DNA of 64,000 nucleotides from Arthrobacter sp. ISL-28. GTDB lineage: Bacteria; Actinomycetota; Actinomycetes; Actinomycetales; Micrococcaceae. Where the stretch lies: positions 62,001 through 126,000 of the forward strand of contig NZ_JAGGPJ010000015.1 of the NCBI RefSeq assembly GCF_018613875.1, in the 5' to 3' direction. A program made the position numbers and the translations under genes. The notes under the pieces are model-generated. The model made no database searches, was not told the DNA's origin, and saw nothing but the letters and a program-made list of their open reading frames with translations. Below, piece by piece: positions 2,950 to 51,186 of the stretch. How positions within the stretch are numbered: the first letter of the stretch is position 1; every line of letters begins with the position of its first letter.

Positions 2950-4329
2950 GTGACCACTTCTCCGGACAGCCCCGTACGCCCGACTTCCTCCGCCGTCGAC
3001 TTCCGCACCGTAGATCTGCGGGGCCGCCGCCTGAGCCTTGCAGAGCTCCGCGGGGCGGTGCCTCGTGCCCGACACCAGACCGTGGCCGACGCCGAGCAGA
3101 AAGTCACCGACATCATTTCAGCGGTCCGGGAGCGGGGCTTCGCGGCCCTGGCGGATTTTGCCCGCCGCTTTGACGGTGTGGAGCAGGCGCATCCCCGCGT
3201 GCCGGCAGAGGCGCTCCAGTCCGCGCTGGACGGCCTGGACCCGGCTGTGCGTTCGGCGCTTGAGGAGTCCATCAGCCGTGCCCGGCGGTTTGCCGACGGC
3301 CAGCGCCCCGCCGACATCGACGTCTCCCTCGGTGACGGGGCCGTTGTCAGCCAGAAGTGGGTGCCCGTGGCCAGGGTTGGCCTCTATGTACCGGGCGGGC
3401 TCGCCGTTTACCCGTCGTCGGTCATCATGAACGTTGTTCCTGCGCTGGCAGCAGGGGTGGAATCCATCGCGCTGGCGTCGCCGCCGCAGAGGGACTTCGG
3501 CGGGCTCCCGCACCCCACGATTCTGGCGGCGGCGGCGCTGCTGGGCATTGGCGAGGTGTATGCGATCGGCGGGGCCCAGGCCATCGCCGCGTTGGCATAT
3601 GGTGTGCCGGGAGGAGTAGCGGATGAAGCAGCCCTGGAACCAGTGGACGTGGTGACCGGCCCCGGGAACATCTTCGTGGCCACGGCCAAGCGCCTCGTCA
3701 AAGGAGTCGTGGGAATCGACTCCGAGGCGGGCACGACGGAGATCGCCATTCTGGCCGACGCCACGGCCCGGCCGGCCTTCGTTGCCGCAGACCTGATCAG
3801 CCAGGCCGAACACGACCCGAAGGCAGCATCGGTCCTGATCACTGACTCGGAGCGGCTTGCCGCCGACGTCCGCGGGGAGCTTGAGCGTCAGGCTGCGGCC
3901 ACCAAGCACGGCGACCGCGTGCGTGAAGCGCTCTCCGGCCCGCAGTCCGGGGTGGTGCTGGTGGACGACCTTGAGCAGGGCATTGCGGCGTGCGACGCCT
4001 ACGCGGCCGAACACCTTGAGATCATGACGGCGGACGCCTCCGCCGTCGCCGCGCGGATCAGAAATGCCGGCGCCATTTTCGTGGGGGACTACAGCCCCGT
4101 GAGCCTTGGCGATTACTGTGCGGGATCGAACCACGTCCTGCCCACCAGCGGGACCGCCGCTTTCTCCTCCGGACTTAACGTGACAACGTTCCTGCGCGCC
4201 ATCCAGGTCATCAACTACACGGAATCCGCGTTGGAAGAGGTCAGCGGGCACATCGTGAGCCTGGCCGGAGCGGAAGATCTTCCCGCCCACGGAGATGCTG
4301 TAGCTGCCCGGTTCAGGGCAGGCCGCTGA
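2950..4329 (+). CDS. hisD: histidinol dehydrogenase
   Basis: 459 aa. Catalyses the last two steps of histidine synthesis, L-histidinol to L-histidine, with NAD+ and zinc. Predicted zinc ligands are Q285, H288 (in QAEHDP), D388 (in GDYCAGSNH) and H447. The catalytic Glu-His pair is E354-H355 (AEHLEIM). The NAD-binding stretch [14 protein letters not shown] is intact. The GTG start lies exactly 6 bp after a TAAAAT hexamer (2938-2943), so the mRNA is probably leaderless. hisC/hisB, often next in actinobacteria, are absent; nrdR follows instead with its own control region. Confidence 0.97.
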
Positions 4330-27603: not shown

Positions 27604-27954
27604 TTACTGCCAGAGCGTGGCGATGGCGACGTTGAGCAGGGCCAGTCCGCCGACGCTGTGGGCGAGGCCGGTGGAGATGGGCTCGTTCTTCTTGTATTTG
27701 CGGCTGCCGATGAAGGCCAGCACGCCGACGGCCAGGCCGATGGCGAACTTGATGCCGAGCTTGGCGTAGTTGGCGTCCATGTCCAGTGCGGGAATCAGGC
27801 CCATCATGACGATGCCCGTGATCAGCTGGAGCGCAGCACCGTCGAACTGCCGCGGGTGGACGGTGGGCTTCTTCATGTTGCCGATCCAGATGCCGACGAT
27901 CATGGCGGCGCCGACCACGTGCAGGAAGACCATGATGTTATAGACGATGTTCAT
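27604..27954 (-). CDS. small hypothetical membrane protein
   Basis: 116 aa, four hydrophobic helices: about residues 5-25 (VFLHVVGAAMIVGIWIG), 40-57, 65-83 and 93-114. His12 in the first helix and the FLHVVGAAM pattern recall CopD/DUF2269-like small membrane proteins, but no family is assigned. TACACT (27961-27966) is exactly 6 bp before the ATG, so it is probably leaderless. A dyad of the kind found before cydA covers its -35 position, hinting at shared control with cytochrome bd oxidase. Confidence 0.78.
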   Translation of the reverse strand: MNIVYNIMVFLHVVGAAMIVGIWIGNMKKPTVHPRQFDGAALQLITGIVMMGLIPALDMDANYAKLGIKFAIGLAVGVLAFIGSRKYKKNEPISTGLAHSVGGLALLNVAIATLWQ

Positions 27955-27975: not shown

Positions 27976-27992
27976 TTCTACGCCTCGTAGTA
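27976..27992 (-). promoter_or_regulatory. BlaI-type dyad upstream of the small membrane protein gene
   Basis: TTCTAC-GCCTC-GTAGTA: same length and format as the three dyads before cydA, with one mismatch in one arm. It overlaps the expected -35 region of the minus-strand gene starting at 27954. Confidence 0.5.
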
Positions 27993-43257: not shown

Positions 43258-44244
43258 TCAGCCGAGCAGGCCGGGAACTATCAGCAGCGCGGTGGGCATG
43301 GCCAGCAACAGGAGGCACACGGTCAGTACGCCAGCCCGAAGGACAGCCGGAAGCGGTGGGCGCGGTGAGAGAAGACGGCTGACGCGGGACGCCGTCGTGC
43401 TCGCCGGTTCGGCGCCGCCGGCACCTTCGGGCAGCTGCAGGCCCGAATCACCGTGACCTTCCCGGCCCAGGGTGGGTGCGGACTGCGGGACGGCGGAACC
43501 GCTGGCAACGATCGCGATCGCTTTGATCAGTGTGGCTTTGCTCTCGGTCTTGAGGGCTACGTCATCGGCGAGCATCTCGATCAGTGAGTTGACGGCCTCC
43601 TGGGCCAGGCGCGTCGTGGGCAGCCAGGGAAGCGCCTGCCGCCACGCGGCAAACGCCCACAGCAGGAGGTGGTGGCGCTGGTTCAGGTGGGCATTCTCGT
43701 GAATCAGCACAGCGCGCAGTTCGGCCGGCTCGAGGGCTGCCATGAGCCCGTCGGAGAGGACGGTGACGGACCGCGCACCACCCGGCAGGCAGTAGGCGAC
43801 CGGTGAATCGTGGTTGATCACCACGGTGCCCGTGCCGTCCGTGGATGGCGAGGCCAGCAGCGCCAGCAGTTCACGGTGGCGCCGGCGCTGCCGCTCAATC
43901 TTGTAATAGGTCAGCAGGAGCGTGAAGACCAGATGCGCTGTCAGCAGCGCCGCCGCTGAGAGCGCGAAGAGGTGCCAGAAACCGAGGGCTGTGGTGGGCG
44001 CGTTCTGGAACACCATTCCGGCCAGTGCCTGCAGCCCGGCGATCAGGTTGTCGCCGATCGGCTCCAGGCCGTACACCAGCATGGCGCCGATCATGGAGAG
44101 ACCGCCGGCCAGGCCGATGGCCTGCCACAGCAGCATGGCTGTGAACGGATCCCGCGCCGGCCAGTGGGCGCGGGAAAGGAGGATAGGTACCGGCCAAGCC
44201 AGTACTATCGCCAGGACCGCCAGGAAGTATGAGGTCCAGAACAT
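43258..44244 (-). CDS. M56 family (BlaR1-like) membrane metallopeptidase
   Basis: 328 aa. Zinc motif HENAH at 182-186 (VLIHENAHLNQRHH). Three hydrophobic helices in the first 115 residues, then a cytosolic protease loop, one more helix near the C-terminus (VLTVCLLLLAMPTALLIV), and no penicillin-binding sensor domain. BlaR1/MecR1 relatives cleave or release their BlaI-type repressor after sensing a signal. The blaI gene is directly upstream (6 bp gap). The signal is unknown; with cydABCD opposite, a redox or respiratory cue is possible (inference). Confidence 0.92.
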   Translation of the reverse strand: MFWTSYFLAVLAIVLAWPVPILLSRAHWPARDPFTAMLLWQAIGLAGGLSMIGAMLVYGLEPIGDNLIAGLQALAGMVFQNAPTTALGFWHLFALSAAALLTAHLVFTLLLTYYKIERQRRRHRELLALLASPSTDGTGTVVINHDSPVAYCLPGGARSVTVLSDGLMAALEPAELRAVLIHENAHLNQRHHLLLWAFAAWRQALPWLPTTRLAQEAVNSLIEMLADDVALKTESKATLIKAIAIVASGSAVPQSAPTLGREGHGDSGLQLPEGAGGAEPASTTASRVSRLLSPRPPLPAVLRAGVLTVCLLLLAMPTALLIVPGLLG

Positions 44245-44250
44245 CGTCCG

Positions 44251-44637
44251 CTAGCTGTGGCCAAGCAGCTTGCGCAGCGTTTCCGCTTCACCTTCCGTCA
44301 CGGAACCAATAAAGCGGGCCAGTACCGCTTCACGGTCCGGAGCCGATCCCAGCACTTCATGCATGAGCTCGGCGGTGTGATCCTCACGGCTGGAGACTGC
44401 ACGATACCGGTGTGGCCGGGTGCCGCGTTCGCGTTCCACCAGGCCTTTCTTTTCGAGCCGCGAGAGCACTGTCAGGACCGTGGTGACCGCCAGATCCTTG
44501 CCCACATGCCCTGCCGCTCCGTCGTGTGCTGCCGTGCTCTGCGCCAGCATGTCGCGCAATGTATTGGCAGTGGCTGCTTCCTGGCCAGCCCAGAGCAGAT
44601 CCATCACTGCGCGTTCCAGTTCCCCAAGACTTGCCAT
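44251..44637 (-). CDS. BlaI/MecI/CopY family transcriptional repressor
   Basis: 128 aa. Winged helix: LGELERAVMDLLWAG at the N-terminus, then DLAVTTVLTVLSRLEKKGLVERERGTRPHRYRAV, the family's recognition helix and wing, then a dimerising C-terminal region. The ATG at 44637 has AAGGATG upstream. It forms an operon with the M56 protease and diverges from cydABCD. Three TTCTAC-N5-GTAGAA dyads between the two units are its likely operators. Confidence 0.95.
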   Translation of the reverse strand: MASLGELERAVMDLLWAGQEAATANTLRDMLAQSTAAHDGAAGHVGKDLAVTTVLTVLSRLEKKGLVERERGTRPHRYRAVSSREDHTAELMHEVLGSAPDREAVLARFIGSVTEGEAETLRKLLGHS

Positions 44638-44736
44638 CTGTACATCCTTTGACAACGCACCAGCAGCGGCCGCTTGGCCGCCGCGTACTCTGATTCCAAT
44701 ACTTCGTCTCCAAATCTAGCGTGTTTCCGCCTTTGT

Positions 44737-44865
44737 TTCTACGTGAGGTAGAACATCCGGCGCGTCGCCCGGCATTGCAGCCCGGCTGGGGCAGTGTCAG
44801 GCTGTTTACAGCGCAGGGGCATTGTTCTACACTCGGTAGAAGTTGATGTTCTACGCGATGTAGAA
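44737..44865. promoter_or_regulatory. three BlaI-type operators between blaI and cydA
   Basis: O1 (44737-44753), O2 (44825-44841) and O3 (44849-44865) all read TTCTAC-N5-GTAGAA with perfect arms and different 5-bp centres (GTGAG, ACTCG, GCGAT). O2 and O3 centres are 24 bp apart. O1 overlaps the -35 position of a TAGATT -10 for blaI; O3 ends 46 bp before cydA. Confidence 0.75.
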
Positions 44866-44911: not shown

Positions 44912-46513
44912 TTGGAAGCCTTGGAAATCGCACGCTGGCAATTCGGAATCACCACCGTGTACCACTTCATGATGGTGCCGCTGACGATCGGCCTCGGCCT
45001 TGTCGTGGCGGTGATGCAGACCATCTGGTACCGCACGGGCAACCCGACCTACCTGCGCATGACCAAGTTCTGGGGAAAGCTTTTCCTCATCAACTTCATC
45101 ATGGGCGTGGCCACCGGCATTGTGCAGGAGTTCCAGTTCGGCATGGCGTGGAGCGAATACAGCCGCTTCGTTGGTGACGTCTTCGGGGCGCCGCTGGCAC
45201 TCGAGGCGCTGCTCGCCTTCTTCGTCGAGTCCACCTTCCTGGGGCTCTGGATCTTCGGCTGGAAGCAGCTCAAGAAGGGCGTCCACCTGGCCTGCCTCTG
45301 GATCGCAGTGATCGGCTCCTTCTTCTCCGCCTACTTCATCATCGTCGCCAACAGCTGGATGCAGCACCCCGTGGGCGTGGAAATGATCGACGGCAGGCCC
45401 GTCATGACCGACGCCTGGGCCGTCTTCACCAACAACACTGCCCTCGTGGCCGTGCCGCACACTCTCTTCGGAGCGCTTGCCGTGGCTGGCGGCTTTCTGC
45501 TCGGTATCGCGTGGTACCACCTTTGGCGGCGGCGCCGTGACGGCATTGACACCGTCGGGGCGGACGGCAAAGTCATCGCCGGTTCGGCGGACATTCCGGG
45601 CCGGGACCGCACCGACCACACCGTGTGGATCCGTTCCCTGCGCATTGGTGCCGTCGTTGCCATGATCTCCTTCGCCGGCACGGCCCTTACCGGGGACCTG
45701 CAGGGAAAGCTGATGTTTGAACAGCAGCCCATGAAGATGGCCGCCGCCGAAGCCGCCTGCCACGACGGCACCGGCTTCTCCGTCCTCAGCGTCGGCAACG
45801 TTGGATCCCGGAACTGTGATGACATTGTGGCTCTCATCGAGGTCCCCGGCATCCTCTCCTACCTGGCCAAGGGCGATTTCACCACGGAGGTCAAGGGGGT
45901 CAACAGTCTGATCGAGCAGTACAAGTCGGACTACGGCACGCACGTGCCGGACAATCCCATCTATGGCGAGCGGGCCGGCCAGGAAATTCAGTACGTTCCG
46001 GTCATGGAGGTCACTTACTGGGGGTTCCGCATGATGATCGGATTCGGCGGAGTGGCGGCGCTGGCTGCACTCTTGGCCCTCTGGGTCACCCGCAGCGGCA
46101 CGGTGCCGGAGTCCCGCTGGCTGATGCGGCTGGCCGTGTTGGGCATCCTGGCCCCGTTCGGTGCGAACGCCGCGGGCTGGATCTTCACGGAGATGGGCCG
46201 GCAGCCGTTCGTCGTAGCGCCCAATCCCGACCTTAACGGCATCGACCAGGTCTTCATGTTTACCGCCGCGGCCGTTTCCCCCGGGGTCTCCGCCGGAGAG
46301 ATCCTCACGTCCCTGGTCGTCCTGACCGCCATCTACGCGGTGCTCCTGGTGGTGGAGGTGAAACTCCTCGTCAAGTACGTCCGCGGCGGCGTCGTTTCGG
46401 CCATGCCCGAACTGGCCAACGCCCCGGTCGACGAGAACGAAGACGCTACCCCCGGCCCTGGCGGATCCGGGAAATCCGGAACAGCCGACGACGTCCTGGC
46501 ATTCGCCTACTAA
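44912..46513 (+). CDS. cydA: cytochrome bd oxidase subunit I
   Basis: 533 aa. Quinol oxidase subunit holding the three hemes. The N-terminus ARWQFGITTVYHFMMVPLTIGLG includes heme-ligand His18. A long Q-loop region follows the fifth helix (residues about 230-360). About nine transmembrane helices. TTG start at 44912 with TAGGGA 5 nt upstream. First gene of cydA-cydB-cydCD, probably repressed by the divergent BlaI. Known role: high-affinity oxygen use under low oxygen, nitric oxide or respiratory stress. Confidence 0.97.
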   Translation: MEALEIARWQFGITTVYHFMMVPLTIGLGLVVAVMQTIWYRTGNPTYLRMTKFWGKLFLINFIMGVATGIVQEFQFGMAWSEYSRFVGDVFGAPLALEALLAFFVESTFLGLWIFGWKQLKKGVHLACLWIAVIGSFFSAYFIIVANSWMQHPVGVEMIDGRPVMTDAWAVFTNNTALVAVPHTLFGALAVAGGFLLGIAWYHLWRRRRDGIDTVGADGKVIAGSADIPGRDRTDHTVWIRSLRIGAVVAMISFAGTALTGDLQGKLMFEQQPMKMAAAEAACHDGTGFSVLSVGNVGSRNCDDIVALIEVPGILSYLAKGDFTTEVKGVNSLIEQYKSDYGTHVPDNPIYGERAGQEIQYVPVMEVTYWGFRMMIGFGGVAALAALLALWVTRSGTVPESRWLMRLAVLGILAPFGANAAGWIFTEMGRQPFVVAPNPDLNGIDQVFMFTAAAVSPGVSAGEILTSLVVLTAIYAVLLVVEVKLLVKYVRGGVVSAMPELANAPVDENEDATPGPGGSGKSGTADDVLAFAY

Positions 46514-46530: not shown

Positions 46531-47580
46531 ATGGAACTGCTGCCGACCATCTGGTTCATCGCCATCGCCGTCCTGTGGACCGGGTACCTCTTCCTCGAGG
46601 GCTTCGACCTGGGCGTGGGAATGCTGATGAAACTCTTTGCCCGGGACAACACCGAGCGCCGGGTGCTGCTGAACACCATCGGGCCGGTGTGGGACGGGAA
46701 CGAAGTCTGGCTCCTGACCGCTGCCGGCGCCACGTTCGCGGCCTTCCCGCTCTGGTACGCGTCCCTGTTCTCGGCCCTGTACCTGCCGCTCCTCCTCGTT
46801 CTGGTGGCCCTCATCTTCCGGGCAGTGGCCTTTGAATACCGGGGCAAGGTGGACACTGACCGTTGGCGGAACACCTGGGACTGGGCGATCGCCGTCGGCT
46901 CCTTCGTCGCTGCCTTCGGCGTGGGCGCAGCTCTGGCCCTCACTACCACCGGTCTGCCACTGGATGCCAACGGCGACCGGGACGGCGGACCATTCTCCTG
47001 GTTCAGCGGGTATGCTCTGCTCGGCGGCTTCGCCGTGGCAGGTTTCGCACTGCTGCACGCGCTGGCGTTCCTGGCACTGAAGACCGACGGCGATGTCCGC
47101 CACCGGGCCCGGCGCTGGTTTGTGCGGCTGCTTCCCGTCCTGCTCCTTCCCATGGCCGGCTGGGCCGCCAGCGTCCAGCTCCTCAGCGGGGAAGCTTGGA
47201 CGGTGATTCTTCTCGCCGCCGCCGGGGTTGCCGCAGCCGCCGCCTGGCTCCAAGGCCGGAAGGGCAACGAAGGCCGGGCTTTTCTGGCCGTCGGCGTGCT
47301 CCTGCTGTGCGGAGCAATCTCGATCTTCGGGGCAGTGTTCCCGGTGGTCCTTCCCTCCACCATTGATCCCGCCTTCAACCTCACCGTCTCCAACGCCTCA
47401 TCATCTGACTACACCCTGGGCCTCATGAGCATCGTGGCCTGCGTCGGACTGCCGCTGGTCATCGCCTACCAGGCATGGACTTACTGGATATTCCGGCGCC
47501 GGGTCAGCGCCGCGCACATTCCGGAGGCCCACAGCTTCCTGCCGGCGATCGCCGCCAAGGCGTTCACGCGGAACGACTGA
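46531..47580 (+). CDS. cydB: cytochrome bd oxidase subunit II
   Basis: 349 aa, about eight or nine transmembrane helices. Typical openings are WFIAIAVLWTGYLFLEGFDLGVGML and IGPVWDGNEVWLLTAAGA. Forms the heterodimer with CydA in the membrane. The ATG has TGAGGA upstream, 17 bp after the cydA stop. cydCD starts 6 bp after its stop, so the three genes form one operon. Confidence 0.97.
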   Translation: MELLPTIWFIAIAVLWTGYLFLEGFDLGVGMLMKLFARDNTERRVLLNTIGPVWDGNEVWLLTAAGATFAAFPLWYASLFSALYLPLLLVLVALIFRAVAFEYRGKVDTDRWRNTWDWAIAVGSFVAAFGVGAALALTTTGLPLDANGDRDGGPFSWFSGYALLGGFAVAGFALLHALAFLALKTDGDVRHRARRWFVRLLPVLLLPMAGWAASVQLLSGEAWTVILLAAAGVAAAAAWLQGRKGNEGRAFLAVGVLLLCGAISIFGAVFPVVLPSTIDPAFNLTVSNASSSDYTLGLMSIVACVGLPLVIAYQAWTYWIFRRRVSAAHIPEAHSFLPAIAAKAFTRND

Positions 47581-47586
47581 GGTCCT

Positions 47587-50500
47587 GTGAAACCGCAATT
47601 CCCCGCCGGCCCATCAACGCGGCGTGCCCTCTACGGACTTGGCCTGCTCGCGGCGCTAAAGGCCCTCGCGCTGGTGCTCATGGGCCAGGCCGTCGCTTCA
47701 GTCCTTGCCGGGCTCATGCTGCAGGATCCCGGATGGGGCGACCAGCTGGGCTGGGGAATGGCCGGCGCGGTCCTCCGGTCAGCCACGGTCTGGGCGCAGG
47801 GCGTCGCTTCCCGCCGGGCAGCCCTTGGCGTCAAGGAGGAGCTGCGCTCGCAGCTCCTGGAGAACGCCCTGCGCAACGGCGTCCGCTCCTCGGGGCCCGC
47901 CGACGGCGGCCTGGCGGTGCTTGCGACGCGAGGCCTCGATGCCCTGGACAGCTACTACACCCAGTTCCTTCCCGCCCTGGTCAATTGCGCCGCCATCCCG
48001 CTGCTGCTCGGCGCCCGTATCCTCTTCGCGGACTGGGTCAGCGCGGTGGTCATTGTGCTGACCGTGCCACTCGTTCCGCTGTTCATGGTGCTGATCGGCC
48101 GCTACACCGAAGACAGGGTGGAGGACGCGCAGGCTGCGCTGTCCCGGCTGTCCGGGCACATGCTGGAACTCGCCAAGGGCCTTCCCGTACTGGTGGGGCT
48201 GGGCCGGGCCTCCGCCCAGCACCGCGCTCTGGAGGACATCTCCGAAGAGTACCGGTTCCGCACCATGGCAACCCTCAGGACCGCGTTCCTCTCGGCCCTG
48301 GCGCTCGAGCTGATCGCGACGATCTCGGTGGCCGTGGTCGCCGTATTTATCGGCGTGCGGCTCGTCCACGGCGATATGGCACTGGAGGCAGGCCTCCTCG
48401 CGCTGGTCCTGGCACCCGATTGCTATCTTCCGCTCCGCGAGCTGGGAACGGCGCACCACGCGAGCGACGACGGCCGCGCAGCGCTCGCAGAAACCACGGC
48501 GGTGCTTGACGCACCGGAGCAGCAACGCCTCAAAGTTGAGCCGGCCCCCGTGTCACCCGCATCCGGGCCGCTGGCGGCATCGCCCACTCCCTCTGGCCAG
48601 GTGGCAGAAGTGCGCGGGCCACACGACCTGACCGTCAAGGAACTCACAGTCAGCTACGCCGGGCGGCAGGGCGCCGCCGTCGGCCCCCTCAACTTCACCG
48701 CGGCGGCTGGCCGGATTACCGCACTCGACGGGCCCAGCGGGGCGGGCAAGAGCTCGGTCCTCGGCGTGCTCGCCGGAACCATTGGGTCCGGCGGCGGCAC
48801 TGTGGTTGCCGGTACCGTGAGCGGCTTCTCCCCGGCGGATGTGGCCTGGGTGCCCCAGCATCCTGTCATGGTCGCAGACACGGTGCGGGAGGAGATCCTG
48901 CTGTACCTCACAGCGGGCGCCCCGGCAGGAACCGGCGCCACCGCTGACGGTGCACCAGCGGGATACTCCACAGCGGAAAACTCCCCGGCGGAAAACTCCC
49001 CGGCGGCCAACGATCACCTGGCCGGCGCAGTCCTGCGGTGCCTCGCGGCGGCCGGGGCAGCGCACCTGGCAGGGAAGCACCAAGCGGAACTGAGTCCCGG
49101 CGAGCTGCGCCGCGTCGCACTGGCCCGCGGTCTCGCCCGCGTCGAAGCGGGCTCCACCGTGCTGCTGCTCGACGAACCTACCGCCCACCTCGACCGGGTG
49201 TCCTCCAACATCGTCCAGGACGCCATCCGGGACCTTCGCGGCAGGGCTACGGTGATCCTTGTGGCCCATAACCGGCAGACCCGCGAACTTGCCGATCAGC
49301 TGGTTCCGCTCGCAGCACCCGGGCACGGCTCAGCCGGCTCCGGCAGCGTCGCTGCCCAGGCCGGAACCGCCGTGGCCGCCGACGCGGCAGGTCGGGTGAA
49401 CCCCGGAGCCCGCGATCGCAGCGAAAGCGTCCAAGCCGCACACATCGTTGAAACAGAGCAGCCAGTCCAGCCCTCGCCTGCGGCTGACCTGCCTGCGGCT
49501 GACCTGCCGGCCGCGGCCGCGCTGCTGGGCAGGCTTCTCGCCCCGGTGCGGGCCAGGTTCGCCGGTGCCGGGATCGTGGGAACCCTTGCATCCCTGTTCG
49601 CGATTGGGCTCTCCGGGCTCTCCGGCTGGCTCATCCTGCGGGCCAGCGAACAGCCCCCTATCATGTACCTGCTCACGGCCATCGTGGGCGTTCGGTTCTT
49701 TGGCATCGGCCGGGCAGTCCTGCGCTACTGTGAACGGCTGGTGCTCCATGAAGCGGTCTTCGCATCGCTGACTATGCTGCGCGGCCGGCTCTGGCAGTCG
49801 CTGAGCCAGCGGGCACTGTCGCTCAGGCGTCTGCTCCAGGGCGGCAACGTCCTGGGAGCCGTGATCGACGACGTCGACACTGTCCGGGACCTCCTGCCCA
49901 GGGTGGTGCTGCCGCCGATCGTAGCGGTGGCTGTGGCCCTGGCCGCCGCCGGTACATCCGCCTGGCTGGTGCCTGCCGCCTTGCCGGCGGTCCTGGCTTC
50001 CGCGGCCATGAGCCTGGCCGCGGCACCCGCGGCGGCACTGCTTGCGGACCGGATGTCGGCCGCCACGGAGCAGCGGCTGCGGTCGGGGGTCCTGCGCCGC
50101 GTCGCCGCGGCCATCGATGCCCGGGCGGAACTCCACGCTAACGGTGCCGCGTCTCCGGTCCTGCACCGCATCCGGGCGGAGGACCGTGCAGCAACCCGGG
50201 CCTCCCAGCGTTCGGCATGGGCTGAGGGACTCGGCCAGGCGATTACCGTCGCCGCCTGCAGTGCCTCGGCGCTGGCCAGCGCCGTGCTTGCAGCACCGCA
50301 GGTCCTGTCAGGCATGGTCGCTGCCCCGACGGCCGCCGTCGTAGTCCTGATGCAACTGGCGCTGGTGGAGCCGTTTGCCGCCATGACGACGGCGGTACGC
50401 CAGTTTCCGGCACTGCGTTCCGTGCTGCGCCGGATCGGCGAATCCGGTGTCCTCGGCGCCGACGGACGGGACACGGAAGCAGTGGTCCGGCCGAACCCGC

Positions 50501-51186
50501 GGGACGGCGACCGTCCGGGCGTCGAATTGAGGGGGCTGACGGCTGCCTGGCCCGGGGGTGCGGACGTCTTCAGCGGCCTGTCCGCAGTGGCGGAACCGGG
50601 CCGTTGGTTGGCCGTCACTGGCCCCTCGGGGGCCGGGAAATCAACCCTGCTCGCGGTCATGCTTGGTTTCCTGCCGCCTCGGAAAGGAAGCATCGCGGTC
50701 ACGGGAGCTGCCGCGTGGTGTCCGCAGGAGGCACACCTCTTCGACTCCACCATCAGGGGCAATCTGCTGCTGGGGCGCCCGGAAAAGCAGGCTTCGGTGG
50801 CTGCGGACGCCGAACGTGACATGCGGGAGGCCCTCTCGGCCGTGGGCCTGGAGCCCCTGCTGGAGCGGCTCGAAGACGGGCTGGACACCAGGCTCGGTCC
50901 CGGCGGCGCGTTTCTCAGCGGCGGCGAAAGGCAGCGGCTTGCCGTGGCGCGCACCCTGATGACGAAAGCTGAGGTGATCCTGCTGGATGAGCCCACCGCC
51001 CACCTCGACGCCGAATCCGGCCGCGTGCTGATGGCCGACCTTCGTGCGGGCCTCCGGTCCCGGACGGTGGTCCTGGTGACGCACAACCCCGCAGACATCA
51101 GCTCCGAGGATGCGCTCCTGGCCCTCCGCCAGAACGGGGATTCCCCGGCACAGCAGGTGATGGCGCCGGCACTGTCCGCCCATTAG
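47587..51186 (+). CDS. cydCD: CydDC fusion: heterodimeric ABC exporter in one chain
   Basis: 1199 aa. Two ABC half-transporters fused: a CydD-like half (about 1-605) and a CydC-like half (about 640-1199). Each half has six membrane helices and a full ATPase: Walker A at 382-389 (GPSGAGKS) and 1012-1019, signatures LSPGE and LSGGE, Walker B LLLDEP and ILLDEP. CydDC exports thiols or heme-related cargo and is needed to assemble cytochrome bd. The fused form is common in actinobacteria. Ala/Pro-rich linkers contain in-frame 15-bp tandem duplications. GTG start. Confidence 0.96.
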   Translation: MKPQFPAGPSTRRALYGLGLLAALKALALVLMGQAVASVLAGLMLQDPGWGDQLGWGMAGAVLRSATVWAQGVASRRAALGVKEELRSQLLENALRNGVRSSGPADGGLAVLATRGLDALDSYYTQFLPALVNCAAIPLLLGARILFADWVSAVVIVLTVPLVPLFMVLIGRYTEDRVEDAQAALSRLSGHMLELAKGLPVLVGLGRASAQHRALEDISEEYRFRTMATLRTAFLSALALELIATISVAVVAVFIGVRLVHGDMALEAGLLALVLAPDCYLPLRELGTAHHASDDGRAALAETTAVLDAPEQQRLKVEPAPVSPASGPLAASPTPSGQVAEVRGPHDLTVKELTVSYAGRQGAAVGPLNFTAAAGRITALDGPSGAGKSSVLGVLAGTIGSGGGTVVAGTVSGFSPADVAWVPQHPVMVADTVREEILLYLTAGAPAGTGATADGAPAGYSTAENSPAENSPAANDHLAGAVLRCLAAAGAAHLAGKHQAELSPGELRRVALARGLARVEAGSTVLLLDEPTAHLDRVSSNIVQDAIRDLRGRATVILVAHNRQTRELADQLVPLAAPGHGSAGSGSVAAQAGTAVAADAAGRVNPGARDRSESVQAAHIVETEQPVQPSPAADLPAADLPAAAALLGRLLAPVRARFAGAGIVGTLASLFAIGLSGLSGWLILRASEQPPIMYLLTAIVGVRFFGIGRAVLRYCERLVLHEAVFASLTMLRGRLWQSLSQRALSLRRLLQGGNVLGAVIDDVDTVRDLLPRVVLPPIVAVAVALAAAGTSAWLVPAALPAVLASAAMSLAAAPAAALLADRMSAATEQRLRSGVLRRVAAAIDARAELHANGAASPVLHRIRAEDRAATRASQRSAWAEGLGQAITVAACSASALASAVLAAPQVLSGMVAAPTAAVVVLMQLALVEPFAAMTTAVRQFPALRSVLRRIGESGVLGADGRDTEAVVRPNPRDGDRPGVELRGLTAAWPGGADVFSGLSAVAEPGRWLAVTGPSGAGKSTLLAVMLGFLPPRKGSIAVTGAAAWCPQEAHLFDSTIRGNLLLGRPEKQASVAADAERDMREALSAVGLEPLLERLEDGLDTRLGPGGAFLSGGERQRLAVARTLMTKAEVILLDEPTAHLDAESGRVLMADLRAGLRSRTVVLVTHNPADISSEDALLALRQNGDSPAQQVMAPALSAH
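48975..49004 (+). repeat. 15-bp tandem duplication in cydCD
   Basis: GGAAAACTCCCCGGC occurs twice in tandem, encoding a repeated Glu-Asn-Ser-Pro-Ala in a loop within the first ATPase domain. In frame, so length variation would be tolerated. Confidence 0.85.
49476..49505 (+). repeat. second 15-bp tandem duplication in cydCD
   Basis: GCCTGCGGCTGACCT occurs twice in tandem in the linker joining the CydD-like and CydC-like halves. In frame. Confidence 0.85.

Follow-up and report, generated by a model that had tools for sequence, protein, structure and literature searches.

The window analysed here, a stretch of 64,000 nucleotides from Arthrobacter sp. ISL-28, contains a regulator operon that faces a cytochrome bd operon across a 256-bp gap. 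On the minus strand, blaI (44251-44655) encodes a BlaI-family repressor of 134 aa when read from a TTG codon, or of 128 aa from the ATG at 44637, and its product passes the family threshold of PF03965 (Penicillinase_R) with 74.1 bits against a cut-off of 22.6. The only solved relative found, 2g9w (E 3.6e-16), carries the entry title conserved hypothetical protein and is presumably M. tuberculosis BlaI, Rv1846c, while named relatives with 86-94% identity occur in Arthrobacter, Pseudarthrobacter and Paenarthrobacter. No other BlaI in the genome looks convincing, and a second PF03965 match (C46) was rejected as a MarR-like protein on reading its sequence. Divergent from blaI on the plus strand lie cydA (44912-46513; cytochrome bd subunit I, PF01654), cydB (46531-47580; subunit II, PF02322) and a cydDC fusion encoding an ABC exporter (47587-51186; TIGR02857 and TIGR02868).

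The gene that follows blaI (43258-44244, minus strand) encodes a membrane zinc metalloprotease of 328 aa with a HEXXH motif at residues 182-186 and a glutamate at E223. The preliminary description called it an M56 protease, which the profile scores do not bear out, as it reaches only 23.3 bits with PF05569 (cut-off 31) and is placed above the cut-off by the M48 profile PF01435 (39.6 bits, cut-off 20.3); its predicted fold nonetheless appears nearest to BlaR1, and because the Pfam cut-offs give M48 rather than M56 we call it BlaR1-like. The model (pLDDT 81) returned BlaR1 for all six top Foldseek matches, with a best E of 6e-4 and a query TM of only 0.33-0.38. Across 14 aligned rows, some of them partial, H182, E183 and H186 are invariant and E223 is near-invariant, and the HEXXH...E spacing is that of BlaR1, for which an excerpt of PMC9834060 gives the zinc ligands as H201, H205 and E242. 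The chain ends with its last membrane helix (300-327 of 328), which agrees with the earlier statement that the protease has no beta-lactam sensor domain.

Between the two operons lie three perfect TTCTAC-N5-GTAGAA dyads, O1 (44737-44753), O2 (44825-44841) and O3 (44849-44865), exactly where the preliminary description had placed them, with O2 and O3 starting 24 bp apart as claimed and O1 and O2 starting 88 bp apart. The 64-kb window holds no perfect match beyond these three, and the strain's own genome (5.04 Mb in 60 contigs) holds six, compared with two for a reversed-pattern control. As the control counts predict only ∼8e-5 perfect dyads in a gap of 256 bp, the presence of three is not due to chance. 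Sites with up to two mismatches were also considered and rejected, since they number 83 in the same genome versus 221 for the reversed control; in that genome such degenerate matches are thus uninformative, and the analysis kept to perfect sites.

A single sigma-70-like promoter was detected in the region, predicted to serve cydA (44805-44833, plus strand; TTTACA-17-TACACT; one found, 0.1 expected in shuffles). Both O2 and O3 precede cydA as had been noted, and this can now be refined, as O2 contains the predicted -10 (TACACT, 44828-44833) and O3 lies just downstream of the predicted transcription start, where it would occupy about +10 to +26 of the predicted cydA transcript. The O2 spacer begins with ACT in all 35 same-genus loci and the spacers of O1 and O3 are variable, and operator and -10 thus appear to be superimposed at O2. 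The TTTACA exactly 17 bp before the -10 is retained in only 4 of the 35, so the promoter reading depends mainly on the ACT of O2. On the other side of the gap a TA[AG]ATT hexamer follows the TAGAAN of O1 at a distance of exactly 17 bp in 35/35 stacked same-genus loci, by which O1 overlaps the predicted -35 of blaI, in keeping with the preliminary description, and would be a putative autoregulatory operator.

This arrangement is well conserved within the genus. O2 and O3 at the spacing of the window were found in 27 of 59 genomes, that is in 27/37 of the same genus and 0/22 others, and all 27 matches fall between blaI-protease and cydA in loci that have all three dyads. Eight of the other ten same-genus genomes also have three dyads, with O2 and O3 spaced 23 or 25 bp apart. 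The last two are G014, which has a single dyad at blaI-protease and in the 15 kb around it gave no match to cydA, cydB or cydDC, and a genome that is 68% complete and gave no BlaI match. Non-conservation of the dyads in relatives that share the gene order had been proposed as grounds for refutation, and the claim withstood this, with all three dyads in 35/37 same-genus genomes and a dyad before blaI in each of the 36 with a BlaI match, even in the absence of cydA. In one genome (G010) the starts of O1 and O2 lie 815 bp apart with ∼730 extra bases between them, and all three dyads are perfect.

Beyond the genus, BlaI is found in 130 of the 297 genomes of the order when distant copies are included (E 1e-8) and cydA in 272, which means that BlaI is not a general regulator of cyd and that many cyd operons do without it. 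We assembled BlaI loci from matches down to E about 1e-32 (29 new and 60 fetched), 80 named loci and 4 earlier ones, omitting lower-scoring matches, and of these 173 loci 169 remained after removal of duplicates. The named loci span Arthrobacter, Pseudarthrobacter, Paenarthrobacter, Sinomonas, Kocuria, Nesterenkonia, Glutamicibacter, Tersicoccus, Mycetocola and others. Divergent cydA is present at 155 of the 169 and the protease lies downstream of blaI at 168, counts that take in close relatives and in which the named and same-genus loci overlap other genomes counted. The link between cyd and dyad, which had been put forward as something to look for in relatives, thus extends with matching dyads through much of the order. 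Perfect TTCTAC dyads number 294 in the 38,110 upstream bases of these loci versus 2 in 876,945 flanking bases, and dyads of a second form, TAC[TG]AC, number 42 upstream versus 1 in the flanks; neither form is present in 13 of the loci. In one family (f19) the BlaI-linked CydA is ∼44% identical to that of the window in some genera and ∼70% in others, which suggests more than one exchange or joining of cyd, with the linkage to BlaI kept throughout. In another (f17; G127, G183, G263 and G303, for example) a BlaI match lies on the strand of cydA and ∼5 kb from it, perhaps directly behind the cyd operon, in what would be a second linkage geometry.

The two dyad forms follow the recognition helix of BlaI. 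Loci in which the helix reads YTTVM have only TAC[TG]AC dyads (27/35, the other 8 having none) and loci with another first helix residue (non-Y) have only TTCTAC dyads (123/127, the other 4 having none), with 7 of the 169 loci unclassed. We considered this match as proof of BlaI binding and demoted it to consistency, as it amounts to one split on a tree of 83 BlaI representatives; as a single event it is consistent with co-evolution of helix and half-site. The number of dyads also follows the presence of cydA. All eight non-Y loci without adjacent cydA have exactly one dyad, and at least two are present in 104 of the 125 non-Y loci where cydA is adjacent (Fisher p 2e-6 for one versus at least two, relatedness ignored); in the remaining 21 there is at most one perfect dyad, and in five of these there is none. 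Two of the eight, G104 and G146, were checked genome-wide and gave no CydA match. In genomes that lack BlaI, no dyad of either form is found upstream of cydA (0/20; regions taken from the matches listed, eight of them from a single family, other members of which do have BlaI).

The perfect dyads reach beyond the cyd locus and predict a respiratory BlaI regulon, with cyd as its core, that is larger than the preliminary description saw. The 37 same-genus genomes contain 273 of them compared with 50 for the control. In the 11 genomes in which every site was placed, 80/80 fall at seven conserved promoters with none left over, 33 at cyd/blaI, 11 at hemQ and 36 in four other conserved loci. hemQ (PF06778) is followed by the ferrochelatase gene and then by hemC, the latter assigned by reading of the sequence, and its dyad is present in 30/30 retrieved loci (of 37 genomes), at a distance of 53-59 bp ahead of where the match starts, with one locus at a contig end read by position. 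Among the four other loci is a cytochrome c-biogenesis operon (histidine phosphatase, then thioredoxin-like and DsbD/CcdA-type proteins), whose dyad was found in 30/30 retrieved loci (of 36 genomes with a match) and in 10/11 placed genomes; the phosphatase gave no match in the draft genome of the window's own strain. The flavohaemoglobin gene hmp has a dyad in 9/11 placed genomes, alongside an Rrf2-family gene that we take to be NsrR-like. A PNPOx-like gene has one in 6/11, with a vsr gene (Vsr-type endonuclease) beside it in five of the six and a contig end at the sixth. The gene of a ∼133-aa membrane-like protein that has no Pfam match has one in 11/11, and from this dyad we predict it to be a conserved member of the regulon.

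Some of these predicted targets have a narrower range than cyd. In the window's family, 6 of 11 BlaI-bearing genomes of other genera have a hemQ dyad within ∼260 bp upstream, and a seventh (G104) has one further up; none is found in the 4 BlaI-less genomes of the family or in 15 genomes of other families, a comparison for which 30 of 45 matches were retrieved. The cytochrome c dyad occurs outside the genus in 1/12 non-Y, 0/10 Y-class and 0/8 BlaI-less genomes retrieved. As the hemQ and cytochrome c dyads were not found outside the family in the retrieved genomes, these targets appear to be more recent than the core at cyd. Taken by their distribution, cyd and autoregulation appear to form that core, with hemQ as an apparent addition common to the family and the cytochrome c operon as one nearly restricted to the genus.

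Four lines, namely the helix class, the dyad number in loci without cydA, the BlaI-less cydA regions and the BlaI-less hemQ loci, point to BlaI as the probable binder of the dyads. By analogy with S. aureus BlaI-BlaR1, the best reading of the locus would be promoter occlusion with release via a membrane protease. The sequences themselves show the anatomy of the locus, its conservation, the members of the regulon as judged from their sites, and co-loss and co-occurrence. In the scheme that we infer, from the binding of BlaI and the repression it exerts to its cleavage, the promoters and the nature of the signal, a BlaI dimer would sit on each TTCTAC-N5-GTAGAA dyad, covering the -10 of cydA at O2, the initially transcribed region at O3 and the -35 of its own blaI-protease operon at O1, so that cydABDC and the regulator operon would both be held down. 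The switch would be the linked membrane zinc protease, activated by a respiratory or membrane signal for which blocked or oxygen-limited respiration, NO and cyanide are candidates; once it is active BlaI would be lost, and cytochrome bd, its cofactor supply (hemQ with ferrochelatase and hemC), Hmp and the cytochrome c operon would come on together. We consider it highly probable that BlaI represses cyd and its own operon from the dyads, that the protease releases it and that the haem, NO and cytochrome c genes are co-expressed. Against this explanation count the Y-class loci that have no dyad (8/35), the non-Y loci with cydA that have at most one (21/125), the poorly retained -35 of cydA, the single tree split behind the helix match, the many cyd operons that do without BlaI and the sub-threshold M56 score of the protease.

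The sole match of BlaI among NCBIfam profiles is to CopY/TcrY, far under its cut-off, and several of the targets are haem-related, as would be expected if BlaI itself sensed metal or haem in the manner of CopY and the protease did not act on it. We regard this as unlikely given that the protease gene is downstream of blaI in 168 of the 169 loci and has preserved its HEXXH...E at the spacing of BlaR1. The trigger is a separate question. The targets serve as bd oxidase, in haem supply, as NO dioxygenase and in cytochrome c maturation, a list that argues for respiratory block or NO over wall stress, and 63 of the 80 placed dyads belong to four places, cyd/blaI, hemQ, hmp and the cytochrome c operon, while no beta-lactamase or wall gene was identified at any of the 80. 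That BlaI binds as proposed and responds to cell-wall or beta-lactam stress, with cytochrome bd as a tolerance response, has the history of the family on its side, as well as the increase of blaI-blaR and cydAB by beta-lactam/clavulanate in M. tuberculosis given in an excerpt of PMC5473688, and is in our estimate slightly less likely again, since a penicillin-sensing domain is absent after the last membrane helix. Least probable of all is that another regulator (Rrf2, CRP or a redox repressor) occupies the dyads and that BlaI is a mere neighbour and target, for although an Rrf2-family gene adjoins the hmp dyad and M. smegmatis cydAB is under Crp (PMC7739888, in part), a dyad precedes blaI in 36/36 same-genus genomes with a BlaI match, also without cydA, is missing at cydA in 20/20 BlaI-less genomes and at hemQ in 4/4 of the window's family, and has a half-site that varies with the helix class of BlaI.

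BlaI repression with release by the protease has parallels in known systems. M. tuberculosis BlaI-BlaR (Rv1846c-Rv1845c) likewise combines a BlaI homologue with a sensorless protease partner, and as here, where sites lie at the cytochrome bd genes, excerpts of PMC5473688 (citing Sala 2009) and PMC5874750 taken together report BlaI at the promoters of cytochrome bd and ATP synthase, the former paper naming both. Control of ATP synthase by BlaI also appears in the accessible parts of PMC5874750 and PMC12565901, atpH and sigC are among the targets in PMC8265638, blaI is placed in the iron-regulated IdeR regulon by PMC7924339, and PMC4757040, as far as its excerpt goes, gives no BlaI motif. Unlike in the M. 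tuberculosis report, blaI-protease and cydA here diverge from a gap whose three operators cover the promoters. Further dyads are located at genes for haem, NO and cytochrome c functions, whereas the M. tuberculosis targets blaC, atp and sigC (PMC5473688 and PMC8265638, both in part) were not seen among the conserved dyads: no ATP synthase, blaC or sigC gene was identified at the 80 perfect dyads of the 11 genomes, in a survey that covered perfect sites and worked from site to gene. The operator here has TTCTAC half-sites and a 5-bp spacer. In the bla and mec systems of S. aureus divergent genes share operators, an arrangement that this locus resembles. Unlike BlaR1 and MecR1, the protease has no C-terminal beta-lactam sensor domain and no beta-lactamase target was found here. 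What the locus has in common with BlaI-BlaR1 and MecI-MecR1 is a repressor paired with a membrane zinc protease bearing HEXXH...E (PMC9834060, excerpt). In M. smegmatis cytochrome bd is transcriptionally induced when respiration is inhibited, as we propose here; there, the excerpt of PMC7739888 describes CRP-dependent induction of cydAB under respiration-inhibitory conditions, that is activation by the cAMP receptor protein, and here we propose derepression from BlaI.

The preliminary reading of the locus is supported, with the qualifications that the predicted regulon extends past cyd in the genus and that BlaI control of cytochrome bd is in itself nothing new. Such control by a linked BlaI/M56 pair had been called little described. 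Binding of M. tuberculosis BlaI at bd promoters is already known (PMC5473688, excerpt), and among the matches listed, in a literature search that left subscription journals mostly uncovered, no paper deals with a linked blaI-protease/cyd arrangement or with haem, NO or cytochrome c targets; a Brachybacterium paper matched through the word 'blaIII' only. The linked architecture, its order-wide conservation and the haem, NO and cytochrome c targets appear to be new in the literature searched.

We tentatively propose, and rate as slightly less likely than not, that the sensorless BlaI/protease pair may be primarily a respiratory-stress system with a bd core across much of the Micrococcales, to which the Arthrobacter type added the genes of haem synthesis, of NO detoxification and of cytochrome c maturation promoter by promoter, and of which the beta-lactam version would be a specialised relative. 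If so, the protease would be a membrane sensor of a kind not yet described, responding to NO or to a block in electron transport, and sensorless proteases would be predicted to take respiration, NO or haem state as their input. A family best known from penicillin resistance would then offer a respiratory switch that can be tested in soil bacteria amenable to culture, where its operator is defined and its targets are few, and this bears on the contact of mycobacterial BlaI with energy genes.

Loss of cyd and loss of hmp provide natural experiments in which operators vanish or decay with their gene. In the window's own strain hmp is a remnant of which only two stretches match, next to the Rrf2-family gene and a dyad that is one base off (C60:56074-62074, 3001-3265), and here the operator is decaying together with hmp. 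It is one of six one-mismatch dyads in this genome, of which four match none of the four conserved site clusters. The sixth lies in the window itself at 27976-27992 (TTCTACGCCTCGTAGTA) and precedes by 21 bp the start of an ORF of 116 aa (27604-27954, minus strand) that has no Pfam match, is membrane-protein-like and is a possible further target.
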